DNA from: Syntrophorhabdus sp.
GTDB lineage: Bacteria > Desulfobacterota > Syntrophorhabdia > Syntrophorhabdales > Syntrophorhabdaceae
Direction: 5' to 3'
Length of the DNA: 32,895 nucleotides
Assembly (NCBI GenBank): GCA_012719415.1
Contig: JAAYAK010000032.1
Span: 1 to 32,895 of the forward strand
Position 1 is the stretch's first letter. The number at the start of each line of letters is the position of its first letter. A model generated the notes under the pieces. That model saw only the letters and a program-made list of their open reading frames with translations. It was not told where the DNA came from and did no database searches. The position numbers and the translations under genes are program-made. Shown piece after piece: positions 368 to 32,756 of this stretch.

Positions 368-1618
368 CTACTCTTCCTTCTTCACGAACCCCATCAGCAC
401 CGCTGATAGTGCGGCGAGGCCTATGGCGACCATGAAGGGGATGGAGAAGGAGCCTGTCACGTCGCGGACGTAGCCGCCGAACCAGTGGGCGGCAATGGCT
501 CCGAAGGCATAAAAAGGTGTGAAGGCGCCGATCACCGTCCCGATGATCTCCTTTCTGAAATAGTCGCCGCCGCAGGCGCCGTACAGGGGAAAGGTCGCGC
601 CGTAGAATATGCCGAAGATGAATATGCTCGTATAAAGCATCGCGGCATTGGAGCCGGAAAGGATTATCCAGACGATGATGAGCGCGATGAAGGCGTTCGA
701 TGTGAGTATCGTCCCCTTCCGGCCAAAACGATCGGAGATCGCCGGTATGGTTAGGACCCCCACCACCTGGCCGAACCCGTGCATCGTCGCGAGGAACGAT
801 GCCCGGTCGTAGGCAAACCCCAGTTGGTACCGCGCATAGTCGACCATGAAGGTGGTTATCATGTAAAGCGTCGCGCCTATCGCGAAATAAGAGGCGGCGA
901 TCATCCAGAAGCGTCTCGCGGAGAGGATCTCCCCGTAGCATGAACGCTGCTTCCCGGCGGGTGCCGCCGGCGCGGCCGGCGCGGGTTCGTCAGGCCGTGT
1001 CCCCCACGGAACCAGACCCGCGTCCTCGGGCTTGCTCCTCAGGAGGATGACATTGATAACGATCATGACGAGGGCGGCGACACCGAGAATGTACCAGCAA
1101 TACCTCCAGCTCCAGTGGGCAACTATCATCGGATACAACCGCCCCATGGTGGCGAAACCAAGCCCGAACCCGGCCGACAGTATCCCGAGCGCCATGCCCC
1201 TCTTATGGAGGGCAAACCACCTCTGCACGAGAGTGATGATGGGCGTCCACATGGCGGCCGCCCCGATGCCGACGAAACAAAAGGTAAAGGCCGCCTGCCA
1301 GAAGCCGTTCGAGAGACCCATGAGGAACGTTCCCACTCCCAGGACCACGCCGAAGACGGGTATCACGACACGGGCACCGAGCCGGTCCGTGAAATACCCC
1401 ACAAAGGGCGAGAAACAAATGTAGGCGTAGAAATAGGCGTTGAAGATCTCCCCGCCTTCCTTCCTGGTGATGCCCATGGTCCGTATCATCTCCGGCAGAA
1501 TGACACCATATCCCAGGCGAATGCCGTAATTGATGAAGAGGTTCACGAAACATACGGCGAGAATGATCCACGCCCAGTGCAGACCCTGCGACTTCGAAGC
1601 TCCGGCTCCATCCGTCAT
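368..1618 (-). CDS. MFS transporter, OFA (oxalate/formate antiporter)-like
   Basis: A 416-residue integral membrane protein with about twelve hydrophobic segments in two halves, split by a Pro/Ala-rich cytoplasmic loop near residues 210-225. The loop 2-3 MFS signature appears as GYFTDRLGAR, and its repeat in the second half as ISDRFGRKG. Sequence style and length fit the OFA/monocarboxylate branch of the major facilitator superfamily. The substrate cannot be read from sequence; a small carboxylate exchanged or imported at the inner membrane is the usual role. The ATG at 1618 has GGGGGAG just upstream, and a good promoter lies at 1652-1680. It is monocistronic, divergent from the PC4-like gene, and ends near hairpin 229-275. 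Confidence 0.85.
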   Translation of the reverse strand: MTDGAGASKSQGLHWAWIILAVCFVNLFINYGIRLGYGVILPEMIRTMGITRKEGGEIFNAYFYAYICFSPFVGYFTDRLGARVVIPVFGVVLGVGTFLMGLSNGFWQAAFTFCFVGIGAAAMWTPIITLVQRWFALHKRGMALGILSAGFGLGFATMGRLYPMIVAHWSWRYCWYILGVAALVMIVINVILLRSKPEDAGLVPWGTRPDEPAPAAPAAPAGKQRSCYGEILSARRFWMIAASYFAIGATLYMITTFMVDYARYQLGFAYDRASFLATMHGFGQVVGVLTIPAISDRFGRKGTILTSNAFIALIIVWIILSGSNAAMLYTSIFIFGIFYGATFPLYGACGGDYFRKEIIGTVIGAFTPFYAFGAIAAHWFGGYVRDVTGSFSIPFMVAIGLAALSAVLMGFVKKEE

Positions 1619-1651
1619 AACTCCCCCTGACTGTCTCTTTGCTGTACAGAC

Positions 1652-1680
1652 ATTCTAGGATACGGCACAAAAGATTGCAA
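1652..1680 (-). promoter_or_regulatory. Sigma-70-type promoter of the MFS gene
   Basis: Reading on the minus strand, TTGCAA (1675-1680) and TAGAAT (1652-1657) are separated by exactly 17 bp, 34 bp upstream of the MFS start codon. This is inferred from consensus match only. Confidence 0.5.
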
Positions 1681-1710
1681 GCCGTTGGAACCGGTTAACG
1701 GATAAAGATG

Positions 1711-1847
1711 GTTGGCACCGTTGGAACCGTTGGAACAGTTAGAATCGTTAGAACCGAGAGGGTTGTTGCAGCGGTTGATTGTTATCATTCGGTGGTCCTG
1801 GCATTTTTCGGTGCTAACGGTTCAAGCGGTTCAAGCGGTTCAAGCGG
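1711..1847. repeat. Inverted tandem-unit element E3 (GTTRGAACC units)
   Basis: The left arm (1711-1755) is five 9-nt units: GTTGGCACC, GTTGGAACC, GTTGGAACA, GTTAGAATC, GTTAGAACC. The right arm (1813-1847) carries three CGGTTCAAG units, nearly the reverse complement. The core (1757-1811) contains TTGTTATC, GGTGGTCC and TTTCGG, which recur in the same order and spacing, reversed, in element E4 (3557-3589). It lies between the divergent MFS and PC4-like genes. Confidence 0.8.
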
Positions 1848-1890
1848 CTTGCGCCTTCGCGCAAGCCTTCTTCCCTCCGGGGTCCGAACA

Positions 1891-1899
1891 TGCTATAGT
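1891..1899 (+). promoter_or_regulatory. Extended -10 promoter of the PC4-like gene
   Basis: TGC followed by TATAGT (1894-1899) forms an extended -10 box 25 bp before the chosen ATG. The -35 region is poor (TTCCCT at 17 bp spacing). The same TGC-TATAGT arrangement is used before the UPF0280 gene. Confidence 0.45.
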
Positions 1900-1924
1900 G
1901 AATAAAAGCTGAATGGAGGGCGCC

Positions 1925-2143
1925 ATGATAATCGGCGAGATACAAAAGACGGGTACCGACAGGATCATCGTTACCGTGAAGGAATTCAAGGGAAAGACCT
2001 ACATCGATGTGAGGAACTTTTTCGAGAACGACGATGGCGAGATGGTACCCACAAAGAAAGGGGTATCGCTGACACCCGAGAATCTGGACGAGTTGATACG
2101 GCTCCTGGGTGAGGCGAAGAAACAGCTTTCGACAGAGAAGTAA
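1925..2143 (+). CDS. PC4/YdbC-like single-stranded nucleic-acid-binding protein
   Basis: A 72-residue protein resembling the bacterial transcriptional coactivator p15 (PC4) family: an N-terminal beta-rich part (IGEIQKTGTDRIIVTVKEFKG, YIDVRNFFE) and a C-terminal helix (TPENLDELIRLLGEAKK). Family members dimerise and bind single-stranded DNA or RNA. The ATG at 1925 was chosen because GGAGG sits 7 nt before it; an in-frame ATG at 1913 would place that GGAGG inside the gene. It precedes rarA by 73 bp with a hairpin between. Its cellular role is not known from sequence; a helper in replication or transcription is possible. Confidence 0.75.
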   Translation: MIIGEIQKTGTDRIIVTVKEFKGKTYIDVRNFFENDDGEMVPTKKGVSLTPENLDELIRLLGEAKKQLSTEK

Positions 2144-2175
2144 TCCACCGGCGGCGCACTATCAACGCAACCACA

Positions 2176-2200
2176 CCCGGCCCCTCTTCGGGGTTCCGGG
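2176..2200 (+). other. GC-rich hairpin before rarA
   Basis: CCCGGCCCC, TCTTC loop, then GGGGTTCCGGG: a 9-bp stem interrupted by a TT bulge. It has no T-tract, and the rarA ribosome site (AAGAGGA, 2203-2209) follows directly. It may stabilise the upstream transcript end or modulate rarA translation; neither can be shown here. Confidence 0.35.
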
Positions 2201-2216
2201 ATAAGAGGACAGATCA

Positions 2217-3527
2217 GTGGAGCTTTTTTCGGACGACACATTTTCCACGGGGAGGTCACAGAAACCTCTCGCAGACAGGGTACGGCCCAGATCGCTCGAT
2301 GATGTCGTCGGCCAGGAGCACCTCCTCGGAGAGGGAAAGCTCCTCAAGGTCCTCATCGAGAGAGGAGACGTTCCCTCTTTCATCTTCTGGGGACCGAGCG
2401 GCGTCGGCAAGACCACCATCGGCTGGCTCATCGGCAGGATAATGAAGCTCCCCTACGTCTCTCTTTCCGCCGTCTCCATAGGCGTAAAGGAGGTCAAGGA
2501 GGTCATCCAGAAGGCCCGGAACCAGAGGATCATCCTCTTTGTCGATGAATTCCACCGCTTCAACAAGCTCCAGCAGGACACGTTCCTTCCCCACGTGGAG
2601 AACGGCACCATCATCCTCATCGGCGCCACGACGGAAAACCCTTCCTTCGAGATCATCTCCCCCCTCCTGTCACGTATGAGGGTCCTCACCCTGAAACCCC
2701 TCGTCACCTCCGACCTCGTGAAGATCCTCGAGAGGGCCTTAAGGGACGACGAAGAGCTCAGGAAGGCGGACATCTGCATCGATACGGCAACGGTAGAGGA
2801 GATCGCGTATCTCGCCGACGGCGACGCGCGGCGGGCGCTGAACCTCCTGGAAGTATGCTGGAAGATGGTCAGGGAAGGCTCTTCGGGAAGCCCTGTCATC
2901 GACCACGCTATCGTGCAGGAGGCCTACCAGAAGAAGACCGCACGGTACGACAAGACCGGCGAGATGCACTACGACCTCATCAGCGCCCTTCACAAAAGCA
3001 TCCGGGGCTCCGACGCCGACGCGTGCCTCTACTGGCTCGCCCGGATGATAGAAGGCGGCGAGGATCCCCTTTACATCATGCGCCGCCTCGTGCGCTTTGC
3101 CTCCGAGGACGTCGGCAACGCGGATCCGCACGCCCTTACCCTCACCATAAGCGCCACGGAGGCCTTCAAGTTCATCGGCCCCCCCGAAGGCTACCTCGCC
3201 CTCGCCCAGGCGGCGGTGTACCTGTCGCTGTGCGAAAAGAGCAACGCCGTCTACACCGCGTACGGTAAGGCGGCGCGGGACGCCCGGGACCTCCCGGAAT
3301 ACCCCGTCCCCATGCACATCCGCAACGCGCCGACGAAGCTCATGGGCGAGCTCGGCTACGGCGAAGGATACCTCTACCCCCACGACCATCCCGGAGCGCT
3401 GGTCAAACAAACCTACCTCCCCGAAGAGCTTCTTGGCAAAAGCTACTACCACCCCACCGACAGAGGCGAAGAACGACGGCTCAAGGCGTTCATGGAGAAA
3501 GTGCGGAACGCGTATAAAGATCGTTAG
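2217..3527 (+). CDS. rarA: Replication-associated recombination AAA+ ATPase RarA (MgsA)
   Basis: A 436-residue cytoplasmic AAA+ ATPase of the RarA/MgsA/WRNIP1 family, which acts at stalled replication forks near SSB and the clamp loader. Visible motifs: Walker A GPSGVGKT (59-66), Walker B ILFVDEFHRF (106-115), sensor-1 GATTEN (136-141), SRMR with a candidate arginine finger near 153, then the C-terminal tetramerisation part. Full family length. The GTG start at 2217 has AAGAGGA upstream, and the protein begins MELFSDD as usual. The TAG stop at 3525-3527 lies inside the first GTTAGAACC unit of element E4, so the element begins at the gene's end. Confidence 0.93.
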   Translation: MELFSDDTFSTGRSQKPLADRVRPRSLDDVVGQEHLLGEGKLLKVLIERGDVPSFIFWGPSGVGKTTIGWLIGRIMKLPYVSLSAVSIGVKEVKEVIQKARNQRIILFVDEFHRFNKLQQDTFLPHVENGTIILIGATTENPSFEIISPLLSRMRVLTLKPLVTSDLVKILERALRDDEELRKADICIDTATVEEIAYLADGDARRALNLLEVCWKMVREGSSGSPVIDHAIVQEAYQKKTARYDKTGEMHYDLISALHKSIRGSDADACLYWLARMIEGGEDPLYIMRRLVRFASEDVGNADPHALTLTISATEAFKFIGPPEGYLALAQAAVYLSLCEKSNAVYTAYGKAARDARDLPEYPVPMHIRNAPTKLMGELGYGEGYLYPHDHPGALVKQTYLPEELLGKSYYHPTDRGEERRLKAFMEKVRNAYKDR

Positions 3528-3660
3528 AACCGTTAGCGCCGTTAGCACCGTTGGCGCCGAAAGACACCCGGACCACCAAACGATAACAACCAATCATTGA
3601 AACGATCCCTCGGTTCCAACGGTTCCAACGGTTCTAACGGTTCCAACGGTTCTAACGGTT
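3523..3660. repeat. Inverted tandem-unit element E4 (GTTAGAACC units)
   Basis: The left arm (3523-3558) is four 9-nt units GTTAGAACC, GTTAGCGCC, GTTAGCACC, GTTGGCGCC. The right arm (3612-3656) is five inverted units of GGTTCYAAC. The core (3559-3611) carries GGACCACC (3570-3577) and GATAACAA (3582-3589). It fills the gap between rarA and thiL, and its first unit contains the rarA stop codon. Confidence 0.85.
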
Positions 3661-3708
3661 GCCGAGGTTGCAACCGCCTTTCGGTTTGGGTTATTATGTT
3701 CCTTCGTC

Positions 3709-4674
3709 ATGGAGATATCGGAAAATAATTTCATTGAGGGCATTCGAAAATTCTCCCGAAGAAGTAATAGTGTCGTACGGGGCATCGGTGACGACGGTGC
3801 CGTCGCGGAGCTTGGCGCCGGCCAGTACGTCTTCGTGCAGGATGCCATGGCGGAGCATGTCCACTTCGAGTTCTCTTTCATGGACCCTTACTACGTGGGT
3901 AAAAAGGCTCTGTACTCCAACATATCGGACGTCCTGGCAATGGGAGCACAGCCGGTCTTCTATCTCGTGACCGCGGGAATACCCGCGAAGATCTCCTCGG
4001 GGGAGATGGACAGGATGTACCGCGGCCTGGACAGGGTCGCCCGGGAATTCGGCGTCATCCTCCTCGGGGGAGACACGGTCGCCACGGCGAGGGACCTCTT
4101 CATCGACATCTCCGTGATCGGGAAGCTGGCCGCGAAGCGATATTTCGGCAGGGACAAGGCCCGAAGGGGCGACCTCATCGCCGTCACGGGAAAGCTCGGA
4201 GAGGCCGCGCTGGGGCTTCGGGCGCTCAAGGAAAGAGGGGATGCGAAGGGTCTCAAGGGCTGTATCAGGCGTTTCCTCAGTCCCAGGCCTCCGTATGCCC
4301 TGTGGAAGGAGATCGTGAAAAATGATATAACTGATGCAATGATGGATGTGAGCGACGGGCTCATCCTCGACCTTTCGAGGATGATGAAGGAGAGCAGGAA
4401 ACAGGCCCGCATCCACTGGGAAAAGGTCCCCGTGCCCCGCCCGCTGAGGCAGAGGGGTCTCGAAGACCTCGCCTTCGGAGGCGGAGAGGATTACCAGCTT
4501 CTCTTCACGTTCCCCCGGGACAAGCTTCCCGTCGTAGAGGCAATGATCGAAAGAGGAAGGCCCGTCACCGTCATCGGAGAGGTCGTATCAGGCAGAGGGG
4601 TCAGGGTCTTAAGGCACGGTTCCGAGATCACACCCCCCCGGGGGGGTTACGATCATTTTGGGGGAAAGGTTTGA
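3709..4674 (+). CDS. thiL: Thiamine-monophosphate kinase ThiL
   Basis: A 321-residue ATP-dependent kinase that phosphorylates thiamine monophosphate to thiamine diphosphate in the cytoplasm. Family marks: GIGDDGAV (26-32) at the N-terminal Mg/ATP site, SDVLAMGA (73-80), LLGGDTVAT (118-126), MDVSDGLILDLSRM in the second half, and AFGGGEDYQLLFT near the end. Length is typical. The ATG at 3709 lacks a strong ribosome site; it lies about 50 bp past element E4. The stop overlaps the TTG start of the next gene, indicating cotranscription. A 14-bp C7G7 palindrome at 4633-4646 encodes part of the normal C-terminus. No thiamine riboswitch is seen upstream. Confidence 0.92.
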   Translation: MEISENNFIEGIRKFSRRSNSVVRGIGDDGAVAELGAGQYVFVQDAMAEHVHFEFSFMDPYYVGKKALYSNISDVLAMGAQPVFYLVTAGIPAKISSGEMDRMYRGLDRVAREFGVILLGGDTVATARDLFIDISVIGKLAAKRYFGRDKARRGDLIAVTGKLGEAALGLRALKERGDAKGLKGCIRRFLSPRPPYALWKEIVKNDITDAMMDVSDGLILDLSRMMKESRKQARIHWEKVPVPRPLRQRGLEDLAFGGGEDYQLLFTFPRDKLPVVEAMIERGRPVTVIGEVVSGRGVRVLRHGSEITPPRGGYDHFGGKV

Positions 4675-10494: not shown

Positions 10495-11786
10495 TCGGGG
10501 CCGGCCTTGCGGGTGTCGAGGCCGCGCACCAGATCACCCGGATGGGGGGACGGGCGGTGCTTTTCGAGATGCGCCCCGGGGTCGGCACCCCCGCGCACCG
10601 GACCTCCCTCCTCGCGGAGCTCGTCTGCAGCAACTCCCTCAAGTCGCTGGACCTTCACAACGCCCACGGACTCCTCAAGGAAGAGCTTCGCGGGATGGGT
10701 TCCGTCATCATGGAGGCGGCCGACGGGACGGCCATTCCCGGCGGCAAAGCGCTCGTCGTCGACAGGGACCGGTTCGCCGCGAGGGTGACGGAAATGACCG
10801 GGAACAACCCCGGCATCCGCCTTGTCCGGGAAGAGGCGCGCCGGACACCGGAGGAGGGCATCGTTATCATCGCGACGGGCCCGCTGACAAGCGATGCCCT
10901 CTCGGGAGAGCTTCAGAAGCTCACGGGCGAGGACAGCCTCTCCTTCTTCGATGCCATATCCCCCATAGTCGACGCCGCCAGCATCGACCATCACAAGGCC
11001 TTCCACGCATCCCGCTACATGAAGGGCGAGGCGGGAGACTATCTCAACTGCCCCCTCACGAGAGAGGAATATGACCTCTTCCACGAAGCCCTGGTGAAGG
11101 CCGAGAGGGTGGATCTCAGGGAATTCGAGAAGACATCCTATTTCGAGGGTTGCCTTCCCGTGGAGGTCCTGGCGGAGCGCGGCAAGAAAACGCTTGCCTT
11201 CGGACCCATGAAACCCGTGGGCCTTACGGACCCGCGCGATGGGAAAAGGCCCTACGCCGTGGTGCAGCTCCGAAAGGAAAACGCCTCGGGAACCATGCTT
11301 AACCTCGTGGGCTTCCAGACGAAGATGAAATACCCCGAGCAGGACCGCGTCTTCCGGATGATACCCGCCTTGAAGGATGCCGTTTTCCTCCGGTACGGCA
11401 GCATCCACCGGAACACCTATATCAACGCTCCCCTGTGCCTGAACGAAAAGCTCGAGCTCAAGGCCGACAGGCGGATCCTCTTCGCCGGGCAGATAACAGG
11501 GGTCGAAGGGTACATGGAATCGACGGCAATGGGCCTCGCCGCGGGCATCTCCGCTTTCATGTCCGCGACGGGCAGGGAATTCCACCCCCCGCCGCCGTCG
11601 ACCTGCATCGGCGCACTCATCCGTTACCTCACCACCGAGAACAGGAACTTCCAGCCTATGAACATGAACTTCGGCCTCATCGAGGGCTATTCGAAAAAGA
11701 ACAAAGAAGCAGCGGTCGAGACGGCTTTGCAGGAAATGGAGAAATGGAAAAACAGTTATAGTCATAAAAACAGTTTTAAGTTTTAG
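10479..11786 (+). CDS. trmFO: Folate-dependent tRNA (uracil-54-C5)-methyltransferase TrmFO
   Basis: A 435-residue FAD enzyme that makes m5U54 (T54) in tRNA using methylenetetrahydrofolate. It begins MEITVIGAGLAGVEAAHQI with the FAD-binding GxGxxG, followed by FEMRP, LVCSNSLKS, YFEGCLPVEVLAERG, LNLVGFQTKMKYPEQ, FAGQITGVEGYMES and MNMNFGLIEGY. The start at 10479 was set from this N-terminus. The end is odd: after the usual EMEKW the frame runs through an A/T-rich stretch encoding KNSYSHKNSFKF and stops at a TAG inside a TTTTAGG unit of element E5. The last ten or so residues are therefore probably not ancestral. Confidence 0.95.
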   Translation: MEITVIGAGLAGVEAAHQITRMGGRAVLFEMRPGVGTPAHRTSLLAELVCSNSLKSLDLHNAHGLLKEELRGMGSVIMEAADGTAIPGGKALVVDRDRFAARVTEMTGNNPGIRLVREEARRTPEEGIVIIATGPLTSDALSGELQKLTGEDSLSFFDAISPIVDAASIDHHKAFHASRYMKGEAGDYLNCPLTREEYDLFHEALVKAERVDLREFEKTSYFEGCLPVEVLAERGKKTLAFGPMKPVGLTDPRDGKRPYAVVQLRKENASGTMLNLVGFQTKMKYPEQDRVFRMIPALKDAVFLRYGSIHRNTYINAPLCLNEKLELKADRRILFAGQITGVEGYMESTAMGLAAGISAFMSATGREFHPPPPSTCIGALIRYLTTENRNFQPMNMNFGLIEGYSKKNKEAAVETALQEMEKWKNSYSHKNSFKF

Positions 11787-12015
11787 GTTTTAAGTGGTAA
11801 GTTAAGAAAAACGGTTTTAAGTGAGAAGAACAGTTTTAAGTTTTAGGTTTTAAGTTTTAAGTAAAAGACTGAAAGAAACAGACGAGATAGTGGAACTCTC
11901 CAAAATTACTCTCTCCGAACCAAGGAACCAATTCCTTTTCCCTTTAACTTAAGACTCAAGACTTAAAATTATCTTCTAACTTGAAACCTAAAACTTAAAA
12001 CCTAAAACGGTTTCT
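11771..12015. repeat. Inverted tandem-unit element E5 (TTTTAAG/TTTTAGG units)
   Basis: Left side: three reiterations opening with AACAGTTTTAAG or AACGGTTTTAAG (11771-11799, 11810-11820, 11829-11863), built of 7-nt TTTTAAG/TTTTAGG units. Right side (11943-12015): inverted units ending CCTAAAACGGTTT. The core has AAAGAAACAG near its left edge and TTCCTTTTCC near its right. It spans from the trmFO 3' end nearly to the bioB ribosome site and is strongly AT-rich against its surroundings. Confidence 0.8.
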
Positions 12016-13009: not shown

Positions 13010-13157
13010 AAGACGGTTCAAGGGTTCAAGGGTTCAAGGGTTCAAGGGAAAGACCGTGAAGGGGGGCGGCTGTCAACGCACTTACTGACCTGCGCAACAG
13101 ATTTTCTTCCTTTTCTTACTCTGGAACTCTTGAACCTTTGAACTCTTGAACTGTCTT
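13010..13157. repeat. Inverted tandem-unit element E6 (GGTTCAAG units)
   Basis: Four perfect GGTTCAAG units occupy 13015-13046. The inverted right arm (13121-13157) reads, on the minus strand, AAAAGACAGTTCAAGAG and further GTTCAAAG/GTTCAAGA units. The element fills the whole gap between two convergent genes: the bioB stop abuts the left end, the pilC stop abuts the right end, and both ends read AAGACNGTTCAAG outward from the gene. This is the clearest full-length example and could act as a two-way terminator. Confidence 0.85.
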
Positions 13158-18210: not shown

Positions 18211-18341
18211 AAAGACCGTCTCAGGTCTCACGTTTCAGGCCTCAGGTTAAGGACCAAAGAAGAGCCTTTTCGACTGTCTCCGTCTGATTTCTTTTGGCCT
18301 GAGACCTGGGACGTGGGACGTGAGACCTGAGACCGTCTTTT
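18211..18341. repeat. Inverted tandem-unit element E8 (GGTCTCA units)
   Basis: The outer 23 bp are an almost perfect inverted repeat: 18211-18233 against 18319-18341, one mismatch by eye, starting AAAGACCGTCTCAGG on the left and AAAAGACGGTCTCAGG read inward from the right. Both arms consist of 7-nt units near GGTCTCA. The core has AAAGAAGAG and TTTCTTTT at its edges. It is located between divergent promoters rather than at gene ends. Confidence 0.85.
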
Positions 18342-20017: not shown

Positions 20018-20138
20018 AAAGACTGTTTTAAGTTTTAGGCAAAAGACAAATGAAAAGTGGTGGGATGCGCCGGTATCCCCCGGAAACCCCCGGGTTCTTG
20101 CTGCTTTTAACCTAAAACCTAAAACTTAAAACGGGCTT
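20018..20138. repeat. Inverted tandem-unit element E9 (TTTTAAG/TTTTAGG units)
   Basis: The left end AAAGACTGTTTTAAG begins two bases after the speE-like stop codon (left arm 20018-20039). The right arm (20104-20138) is inverted CCTAAAA/CTTAAAA units. The unit is the same as in E5, 8 kb away. The core contains GGTATCCCCCGG and CCCCCGGG blocks. The tRNA-Gly gene follows. Confidence 0.75.
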
Positions 20139-27995: not shown

Positions 27996-28378
27996 ACGGA
28001 CGGACGGGTCTGCGCGCAAAAGCGCGCAAACGGGTCGGCGCTCGCGCGCCTAACGGGCAAACGGGGGAAGAGGCACACGGGTCTTTCGCTTCGCGAAAAA
28101 CGGGCGGACGGGCAAACGGGTAAGGACCTTGTTGGTGCCCCGGGAAAGCCGGGGAATCTGTCTTGCGCGTTTCCGCGCATAATCTCTCATTTTATGTAAT
28201 GGTGTATAAACCTACCGGCAGTCTCTGCGGCGGCAGACAAAGAGTACATGTCCGGATCGGGACAGGTTGGTTGTCCAACAGCTGTCCTTCTCGGCCCGTC
28301 CTCGCCTTTCCCCGTCTGCCCGTTAGGCGCGCGAGCGCCGACCCGTTTGCCCGAAGGGCAGACCCGTCTACGTCCTTA
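27996..28378. repeat. Large inverted element E12 with nested small hairpins
   Basis: It fills the gap between convergent ftsY and purN. A 39-bp segment (28028-28066) recurs inverted at 28310-28348 with one mismatch by eye. It includes GGCGCTCGCGCGCC and ACGGGCAAACGGG. Next to it, after a conserved GACGGGTCT, each copy has a different small hairpin: GCGCGCAAAAGCGCGC (left) or GCCCTTCGGGC (right). A third copy has TTTCGCTTCGCGAAA (near 28089). Between the arms lie hairpins at 28138-28154, 28164-28179 and 28259-28288. The right arm runs into the purN stop codon. No gene is seen in the 380 bp. Confidence 0.8.
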
Positions 28379-31424: not shown

Positions 31425-32589
31425 GAACGTGTCGACACCCCGAATATACATGGACAACAACGCCACAACCCCCATCCATCCCCGGGTGGCGGACGCGGTG
31501 AGACCCTTTCTCGACGGTCTCTTCGGAAACCCTTCGAGCCTTCATTTTGCCGGGCGCGACATCAAAGAAACCTATGAAGCGGCACGGGAGCAGATAGCCG
31601 CCGTGATCGGGGCGAAGGCGAATGATGTCGTTATCACGAGCTGCGGCAGCGAGGCCGACAACCATGCCATCAAGGGCATCGCCTTGAGGGCGCGAAAAGG
31701 CCATATCATAACATCGGCGGTGGAGCATCCCGCCGTGCTCAACTGCTGCAAGCACCTCGAAACGCAGGGCTTTCCCGTCACCTATCTTCCCGTCGACGGG
31801 CATGGTCTCGTCGATCCGGAAGACGTGAGGGATGCCATCAGGAAGGACACCATCCTCATCTCTGTCATGTACGCGAACAACGAAACGGGGACTGTGATGC
31901 CCATCGCCGATATCGCCCGCATCGCCCGCGAAAGAGAGATCCTCTTTCATTCCGACATGGTGCAGGCCCTGGGCAAGATAGATGTGGATGTGACCTCCCT
32001 CGGCGTCGACCTCGCCAGCTTCTCGGGGCACAAGGTGTACGCCCCGAAGGGGGTGGGGGCCCTGTACATACGCGAGGGTCTCGCCATCGACAACCTCATT
32101 CACGGCGGCCACCAGGAATCGGGAAGACGGGCGGGTACGGAGAATGTCATCGGCATCGTGGCCTTCGGCAGGGCCTGCGAACTGGCGAGAGAGGAGATGA
32201 ACGAACGGCGGGAGACCATCGAAGGCCTGCGGCGTCGCCTCCTCGACGGCATCCTGGAGCGCATCGATCACGTGCGCCTCAACGGACACCCCCTGCAGAG
32301 GGTCCCCAACACGCTCAACCTCAGCTTCGAGTTCATAGAATCGGAATCGCTTCTGCTTGCCCTCGACATGAAGGGCGTTGCCGTATCGTCCGGCTCTGCC
32401 TGTTCGTCGGGCTCCACGGAGCCCTCCCATGTCCTCACGGCAATGGGCATACCGGGGCCCCTGTGCCAGAGCGCGCTGCGCTTCAGCCTGGGATGCGAGA
32501 ACAGTCCGGCCGACGTGGACTATGTCCTCGACATCCTTCCCGATCTCGTGGCCAAACTGCGGGAGATGTCACCGTTCTACAAAGGGTAG
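31408..32589 (+). CDS. nifS: Cysteine desulfurase, NifS/IscS family
   Basis: A PLP-dependent enzyme of about 393 residues that releases sulfur from cysteine for Fe-S clusters and thio-modified tRNA. It has YMDNNATTPIHP, GNPSSLHFAGRD, TSCGSEADNHAIKG, SAVEHPAV, MYANNETGTVMPI, HSDMVQALGK, the PLP Lys in SFSGHKVYAPKGVGAL, and the persulfide Cys in VSSGSACSSGSTEPSHVL with the short-loop NifS/IscS style. ATG 31408 overlaps the ferredoxin gene; GTG 31429 is an alternative that starts closer to the family N-terminus. The TAG stop is followed by AAGACGGTTTCAGG of element E15. Confidence 0.93.
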   Translation: MSPSSKNVSTPRIYMDNNATTPIHPRVADAVRPFLDGLFGNPSSLHFAGRDIKETYEAAREQIAAVIGAKANDVVITSCGSEADNHAIKGIALRARKGHIITSAVEHPAVLNCCKHLETQGFPVTYLPVDGHGLVDPEDVRDAIRKDTILISVMYANNETGTVMPIADIARIAREREILFHSDMVQALGKIDVDVTSLGVDLASFSGHKVYAPKGVGALYIREGLAIDNLIHGGHQESGRRAGTENVIGIVAFGRACELAREEMNERRETIEGLRRRLLDGILERIDHVRLNGHPLQRVPNTLNLSFEFIESESLLLALDMKGVAVSSGSACSSGSTEPSHVLTAMGIPGPLCQSALRFSLGCENSPADVDYVLDILPDLVAKLREMSPFYKG

Positions 32590-32756
32590 AAGACGGTTTC
32601 AGGTTTCAAGTTGCAGGTTTCAAGTTAAAAAACCCGATACTTTTGCCTGGAACCTGGAAAGGGAAAAGACGGTTTCAGGTTTCGAGTTTCAGGTTTCAGG
32701 CAAGAGAAACCGGATTCTTTTACCTGGAACCTGGAACTTGGAACATGAAACCTCGC
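32590..32756. repeat. Duplicated tandem-unit element E15 (GGTTTCA units)
   Basis: Two copies lie head to tail with a period of about 76-77 nt. Each opens with AGACGGTTTCAGGTTTC (32591 and 32667). Each has a core ending in a 24-nt word (32636-32659 and 32713-32736, 22 of 24 identical by eye) that includes CTTTT and CCTGGAACCTGGAA. The last arm continues as TGGAACT/TGGAACA/TGAAACC units and contains the start codon of the next gene. Confidence 0.8.

Follow-up and report, generated by a model that had tools for sequence, protein, structure and literature searches.

The heptamer STRR arrays of cyanobacteria are intergenic tandem heptamers that occur in many copies; they are not known to form inverted pairs around homologous cores. 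In Geobacter metallireducens, the Gmet_I sites of classes 1-3 are paired tandem-repeat sites that were read, in the passages of the paper devoted to them, as sites for IHF/HU-type regulators (Aklujkar et al., 2009; PMC2700814). REPs are hairpins of 20-40 bp with GTAG/CGTC tags and without tandem-unit arms, and they are associated with RAYT transposases (PMC3733652, PMC3116915). Among eukaryotes, the Foldback/Galileo-type transposons (e.g., Tm1) have long inverted ends composed of short tandem repeats in variable number (PMC3169594). Inverted tandem-repeat pairs of bacteria have so far been listed, but taken as static binding sites, and a literature search found no paper on Syntrophorhabdus with tandem repeats.

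The window analysed here (32,895 nucleotides) is the entire contig C32 of a 3.7-Mb Syntrophorhabdus assembly in 329 contigs. Among named relatives, those closest to it by RarA (89-93% identical) are metagenome assemblies, namely Syntrophorhabdus sp. PtaB.Bin047, Syntrophobacterales bacterium Delta_02 and further bins of Syntrophorhabdus type. Two intergenic elements, E3 and E4, lie within the order MFS gene (reverse)-E3-PC4 gene-rarA-E4-thiL, which is conserved in the genus (Table 1). The original prediction held that they share a homologous, transferable core in opposite orientation, flanked throughout by one class of 9-nt unit, and that this argues for duplication or mobility.

Organization of the Locus

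Table 1. Features surrounding E3 and E4, and two further elements of the window.
Feature	Positions	Strand	Basis or remark
MFS transporter gene	368-1618	-	Pfam MFS_1; divergent from the PC4 gene, E3 between both promoters
Orthologous left flank of E3, containing the putative MFS promoter	1619-1681	+	83% to G002, 76% to G005
E3 left arm, five units GTTGGAACC/GTTAGAACC, E4-like	1711-1756	+	TRF; 1711-1841 77% to E4
E3 core common to E4	1779-1811	+	27/33 vs. shuffle maximum of 22
E3 right arm, CGGTTCAAG units, class kept from ancestral E3	1818-1847	+	1809-1925 92% to G002 site
PC4/p15 family small gene	1913-2143	+	Pfam PC4
rarA (MgsA-type AAA+ ATPase)	2217-3527	+	Pfam MgsA_C, AAA
E4 left arm, GTTAGAACC-type units	3522-3552	+	TRF
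E4 core, homologous to E3 core	3557-3589	-	Core match, shuffles, alignment
E4 right arm, CGGTTCCAA/CGGTTCTAA units	3611-3660	+	TRF
thiL, thiamine-phosphate kinase	3709-4674	+	TIGR01379 over cut-off
Further element, built alike, with 8-nt arms and a multi-copy core	13015-13152	+	Fills the gap between two convergent stop codons
Further element, 7-nt GGTCTCA arms	18218-18334	+	Same site: GGTTTCA in G005, GGTCACA in G002

A promoter-like sequence (TTGCAA-17-TAGAAT, minus strand) within the left flank of E3 is the putative MFS promoter. At the other element, rarA ends on a stop codon (TAG, 3525-3527) that, by sequence, is part of the first unit of the E4 left arm; in relatives, rarA terminates ahead of the element. 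An Rfam scan of the window returned two tRNAs and no other family over gathering score. At 32581-32753, two 7-nt elements stand in tandem before a downstream gene, the second being approximately a copy of the first (76-nt period).

Homology of the E3 and E4 Cores

The E3 core on the plus strand and the E4 core read in reverse (3589-3557) are identical at 27 of 33 positions, so that the coordinates, orientation and count originally given are correct; TTGTTATC, GGTGGTCC and TTTCGG were found at equal spacing in both, and the alignment confirms that transitions make up five of the six differences. Twenty-seven is also the best ungapped 33-nt match between the inter-arm segments of the two elements, as compared to a mean of 17.5 (sd 1.3, maximum 22; z 7.5) for 1000 pairs of dinucleotide-preserving shuffles of these segments. 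This match is among the top seven of 903 pairs of cores from 766 kb of the same genome, and the rest of these are pairs from within other core families. The likeness extends past the core into both arms as a 131-nt alignment of 77% identity (E 1e-21). On the strength of these alignments, the two cores are homologous rather than alike by chance, which supports the view that the elements are more than arms made by slippage.

Further copies of this core, sought in the same genome and throughout the genus, did not exceed a reversed-pattern control at up to three mismatches. With the 20 most marked core bases, the genome itself yielded the two known copies and one background match at this threshold, the reversed control also giving one; 12 genomes of the genus yielded background matches only, and neither E3 nor the core pattern was matched in collections of plasmids and viral contigs. 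The core is likewise absent from the orthologous sites of relatives. For the E3/E4 core taken by itself, transferability is thus unsupported, and the outcome is the one originally named as refuting it; it holds for the type of element, because other cores are multi-copy and occupy non-orthologous loci. The covariance model originally proposed was unwarranted, there being only two copies, neither of which folds better than when shuffled (z -0.5 and +0.6).

A Genus-restricted Set of Fold-back Elements

E3 and E4 are members of a larger set of fold-back elements, intergenic and restricted to the genus, each consisting of a core of about 30-200 nt between inverted arms of 7-, 8- or 9-nt tandem units. 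A survey of 766 kb, about one-fifth (21%) of the genome, contained 197 tandem arrays with periods of 6-10, a density that is not a genome average since the contigs were partly picked for a match to E3. The dominant units are AACCGCTTG, AACCGTTRG (9 nt), AACYCTTG (8 nt), AAACCTG, ACCTGAG and AAAACTT (7 nt), and ACCTATAGG. Where arrays neighbour each other within 350 nt, 48 of 61 are same-class inverted copies, as compared to a mean of 11.5 and a maximum of 22 when right-hand arrays are permuted. Arms keep one fixed polarity, shared by 64 of the 64 left arms that could be scored in the main classes, and the box AAAGAC, about 10-fold enriched at both outer and inner arm edges, is never reversed there. 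The unit may hence be idealized as AAAGAC-units-AAAGAC-core-GTCTTT-units-GTCTTT.

Within an element, the two arms resemble each other no more closely than they do other members of their class. This argues against arm-to-arm correction, rejected on this count, and for elements dispersing as a whole; it also means that there is no direct sign of exchange between arms. In the 8-nt family, a left arm can be told from a right arm (p 0.004). The 7-nt and 9-nt arms tested are confined to part of the genus, with a few single matches to the 9-nt pattern among 87 genomes outside it. Tandem heptamer arrays of a different unit are present in another genome of the phylum, G088 (other family), in which a reversed control pattern recovered 32 matches to ACTTTGG heptamers.

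Turnover Among Relatives

One family of cores, normally found within 8-nt arms, has 21 matches in the genome of the window and 23 in G005, whereas G001, which is incomplete, has four and G002 none. Identity between members from different contigs reaches 92% over 76 nt, and the start of the same core is also present within 7-nt arms. Two small contigs of the assembly, L263 (G000:C70) and L017 (G000:C20), have stretches of 1.4-1.7 kb that are 99-100% identical to a G005 contig, L264 (G005:C67), although elsewhere the two assemblies are only about 86% identical. This points to metagenome bins contaminated by one another, and a few of the copies counted in the survey may therefore belong to the other species. 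Another core is found both at the E3 site of G005 and at the E4 site of G002, with six and seven matches in those genomes, some of which overlap because the core is palindromic.

In the relatives G002 and G005, the elements at the E3 and E4 sites differ from those of the window in both unit class and core, and no element is present at the E3 site of G004, G006 and G007. A comparison by eye of the element sites of the window with those of G005 found class and core to differ at most of them; both are kept at 11747-12008 and 20024-20132. At four more orthologous sites, one species has an 8-nt element where the other has a 7-nt element, a remnant or a palindrome of the ACGGGCAN type. The number of arm units varies between species at vertically kept sites, such as 11747-12008.

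In a further palindromic family, found in the window at 28010-28370 and at L172:16507-16656, tandem ACGGGCAN units surround hairpins rich in GC; the orthologous G005 site has an 8-nt element. An 8-nt-class core at L161:5575-5679 apparently contains a nested, near-perfect inverted repeat of 20 bp, CTTGAGACAGGGAACCTGCAC, of which no second copy was found in the sequence examined, and a REP-like palindrome, GATTCCGGCCTTCGCCGGAATGACG, lies inside some cores (L209:3986-4336, L213:7554-7835). Such repeats seem to land inside cores.

E3 as a Mosaic

The left flank of E3 (1619-1681) and its right arm with the adjoining flank (1809-1925) are 83 and 92% identical, respectively, to the orthologous site of G002. 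Between them, the left arm and core (1711 to approximately 1815) match E4. The same 9-nt unit class had been claimed for all arms; three of the four are indeed of the CGGTTCYAA class, and the exception, the right arm of E3, is of the CGGTTCAAG class. Arm pairs of mixed class are found in two of the 22 nine-mer elements of these classes, E3 being one of them. E3 is shown by these alignments to be a mosaic, its outer flanks and right arm those of the ancestral E3 and its left arm and core of E4 type. The simplest account would be that sequence of E4 type replaced the original left arm and core, and that on the right the junction fell within the arm. Copying from E3 to E4 would predict CGGTTCAAG units at E4, which has none on either side, and with only two copies of the core known, the direction from E4 to E3 rests on the arm classes. 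The copies are 23% diverged; the event is consequently old and its edges are blurred. As to the earlier argument for duplication or mobility, the mosaic is a better fit to local copying via recombination through the arms than to the insertion of a complete mobile unit.

On balance, we think it more probable than not that E3 and E4 are part of a fold-back set in which an E4-type copy was introduced into E3 by exchange in the arms, with a wider dispersal and replacement of whole elements elsewhere. The donor would have been E4 or an E4-type element since lost, and the homology-driven exchange, by gene conversion or template switching, would have started and ended in the GGTTC-rich arms, so that the arms would act as tracts of exchange and the core as cargo that can be replaced. 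At other loci, entire elements would disperse or give way to other classes, preferentially right behind stop codons, where a long hairpin with an A-tract before and a T-tract after it may serve as a putative bidirectional terminator. A broader picture can be put forward only tentatively, namely that of a modular fold-back system in a genus of the Syntrophorhabdales, with arms as landing and exchange tracts, cores swapped between loci and arm classes, and classes overwritten at fixed sites behind stop codons, all driven by a putative enzyme.

Placement and the Question of Termination

With genes called by a simple hexamer model, elements were found in 19 of 44 convergent gaps and in 27 of 199 other gaps of at least 100 nt (p 3e-5). 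At 16 of the 19 convergent sites, both arm edges are within 25 nt of a stop codon, and between codirectional genes one edge usually adjoins the stop codon of the upstream gene. This adjacency and the convergent excess are what would be expected were the elements bidirectional terminators with hairpins under selection, their positions being kept for the gene ends while their sequences turn over by slippage, conversion and replacement. We regard this as a serious candidate, albeit one with less than an even prospect of being correct. It would also account for the A-tract and T-tract at the arm edges, for the high stability of the folds predicted for both E3 and E4 (-43 to -75 kcal/mol), and for changes of class where position stays. 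However, E3 is an exception in placement, lying between two divergent promoters as do several others, so that termination is not its main role. An intrinsic terminator would have a GC-rich stem, a short loop and then a U-tract; T-tract boxes do lie at the arm edges, but the loops, at 50-150 nt, are too long. Terminator hairpins in the cores themselves were rejected as a general explanation; structure is no general property of the cores (mean z -0.4 vs. shuffles), only a minority of which fold beyond shuffles. A terminator scan identified one short terminator-like site beside E4 (3656-3676), its total not exceeding that of shuffles. The E3 site of some relatives is without any element, which also speaks against a terminator role, and selection for termination does not explain why cores are shared by distant loci.

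The Search for a Mobilizing Enzyme

The presence, absence and replacement of elements at orthologous sites, together with a core family that is abundant in two genomes and missing from another, might reflect non-autonomous miniature transposons of a MITE-, REPIN- or Foldback-like kind with a transposase acting in trans; E3 and E4 would then be two insertions of one subfamily, and the right arm of E3 would reflect later decay or a nested insertion beside an older element. The distinguishable left and right arms of the 8-nt family and the boundary boxes at the inner and outer arm edges are what such units might possess. We consider this a candidate, but less likely than not. No target duplication was seen in the comparisons of filled and emptier sites, made between relatives too diverged to demonstrate one, and no autonomous, gene-carrying copy flanked by arms was found in the 21% of the genome scanned; two candidate intervals contain a radical SAM gene and an unassigned 142-aa frame. 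A RAYT was rejected as the driver, as the distribution of Y1_Tnp (PF01797) does not track the number of elements: G002 (98% complete) has no PF01797 match yet 82 and 73 arm matches, and G004 has PF01797 matches and no arm matches, although loss after spread is possible. The data analysed yielded neither an enzyme nor an excision product. The mosaic structure of E3, with a breakpoint within an arm, is a further difficulty for transposition of whole units.

By analogy with the paired sites proposed for G. metallireducens, the elements could be putative binding sites of a nucleoid or regulatory protein; the published parallel consists, in the passages concerned, of octa- and heptanucleotide arrays that form pairs, one on each strand, with a variable distance between them (PMC2700814). 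This seems improbable here, as the many unit sequences per genome and the replacement of classes at one site are hard to reconcile with a single site-specific binder. It is very improbable that the arms arose by replication slippage in ordinary hairpins with arm-to-arm correction, the shared core being chance or convergent, for although arm copy number does vary at vertically kept sites, core likeness is far above shuffles, cores are shared in multiple copies, the same few units recur at dozens of loci in half of the genus and hardly outside it, arm polarity is fixed, and arms within an element show no excess likeness.

Comparison With Known Systems

Comparison of close relatives reveals turnover, with other classes at the same positions, unrelated loci that have a core in common, and the mosaic seen in E3. 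It suggests that the set is a little-known kind of small spreading DNA, the middles and arms of which would be swapped or replaced between species. The spread of very small dispersed DNA in bacteria without an obvious transposase becomes testable, as does the notion of gene ends as refuges for such DNA if hairpins double as terminators.

Inverted tandem-repeat termini around a variable middle, here in 48 of 61 neighbouring arrays, are the hallmark of the Foldback transposons, which resemble the present elements in their inner purine-rich motif and in a middle that differs between copies (PMC3169594). Those transposons have transposase-coding relatives and 9-bp target duplications (PMC3169594), neither of which was found here, and the present elements are bacterial and several times shorter; membership is not claimed since the defining target duplication and transposase were sought and not found.

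With REP/BIME and REPIN sequences, the elements have in common that they are short, palindromic, extragenic, of high copy and in species-specific families, and that they lie in convergent and codirectional gaps, downstream of coding regions (PMC3733652, PMC3116915). The convergent enrichment (19 of 44 gaps, p 3e-5) agrees with this placement. Unlike REPs, they have tandem-array arms and varying cores; in place of a conserved palindromic unit with a GTAG/CGTC tag there are 7-9-nt arrays bounded by AAAGAC, and the pattern in G002 and G004 is not that of a cognate RAYT.

The Gmet_I units differ in sequence from those found here, and shared cores, replacement at orthologous sites and placement at stop codons are not described in the passages of that paper dealing with these sites (PMC2700814). 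As described there, however, Gmet_I has three to five tandem units of 7-8 nt, on opposite strands, paired at variable distance and present in many copies, in a host likewise from the former delta-proteobacteria (PMC2700814). Paired tandem oligonucleotide arrays on opposite strands are equally characteristic of the elements of Syntrophorhabdus, a likeness of architecture, and by this analogy the Gmet_I paired sites of G. metallireducens are the nearest published description.
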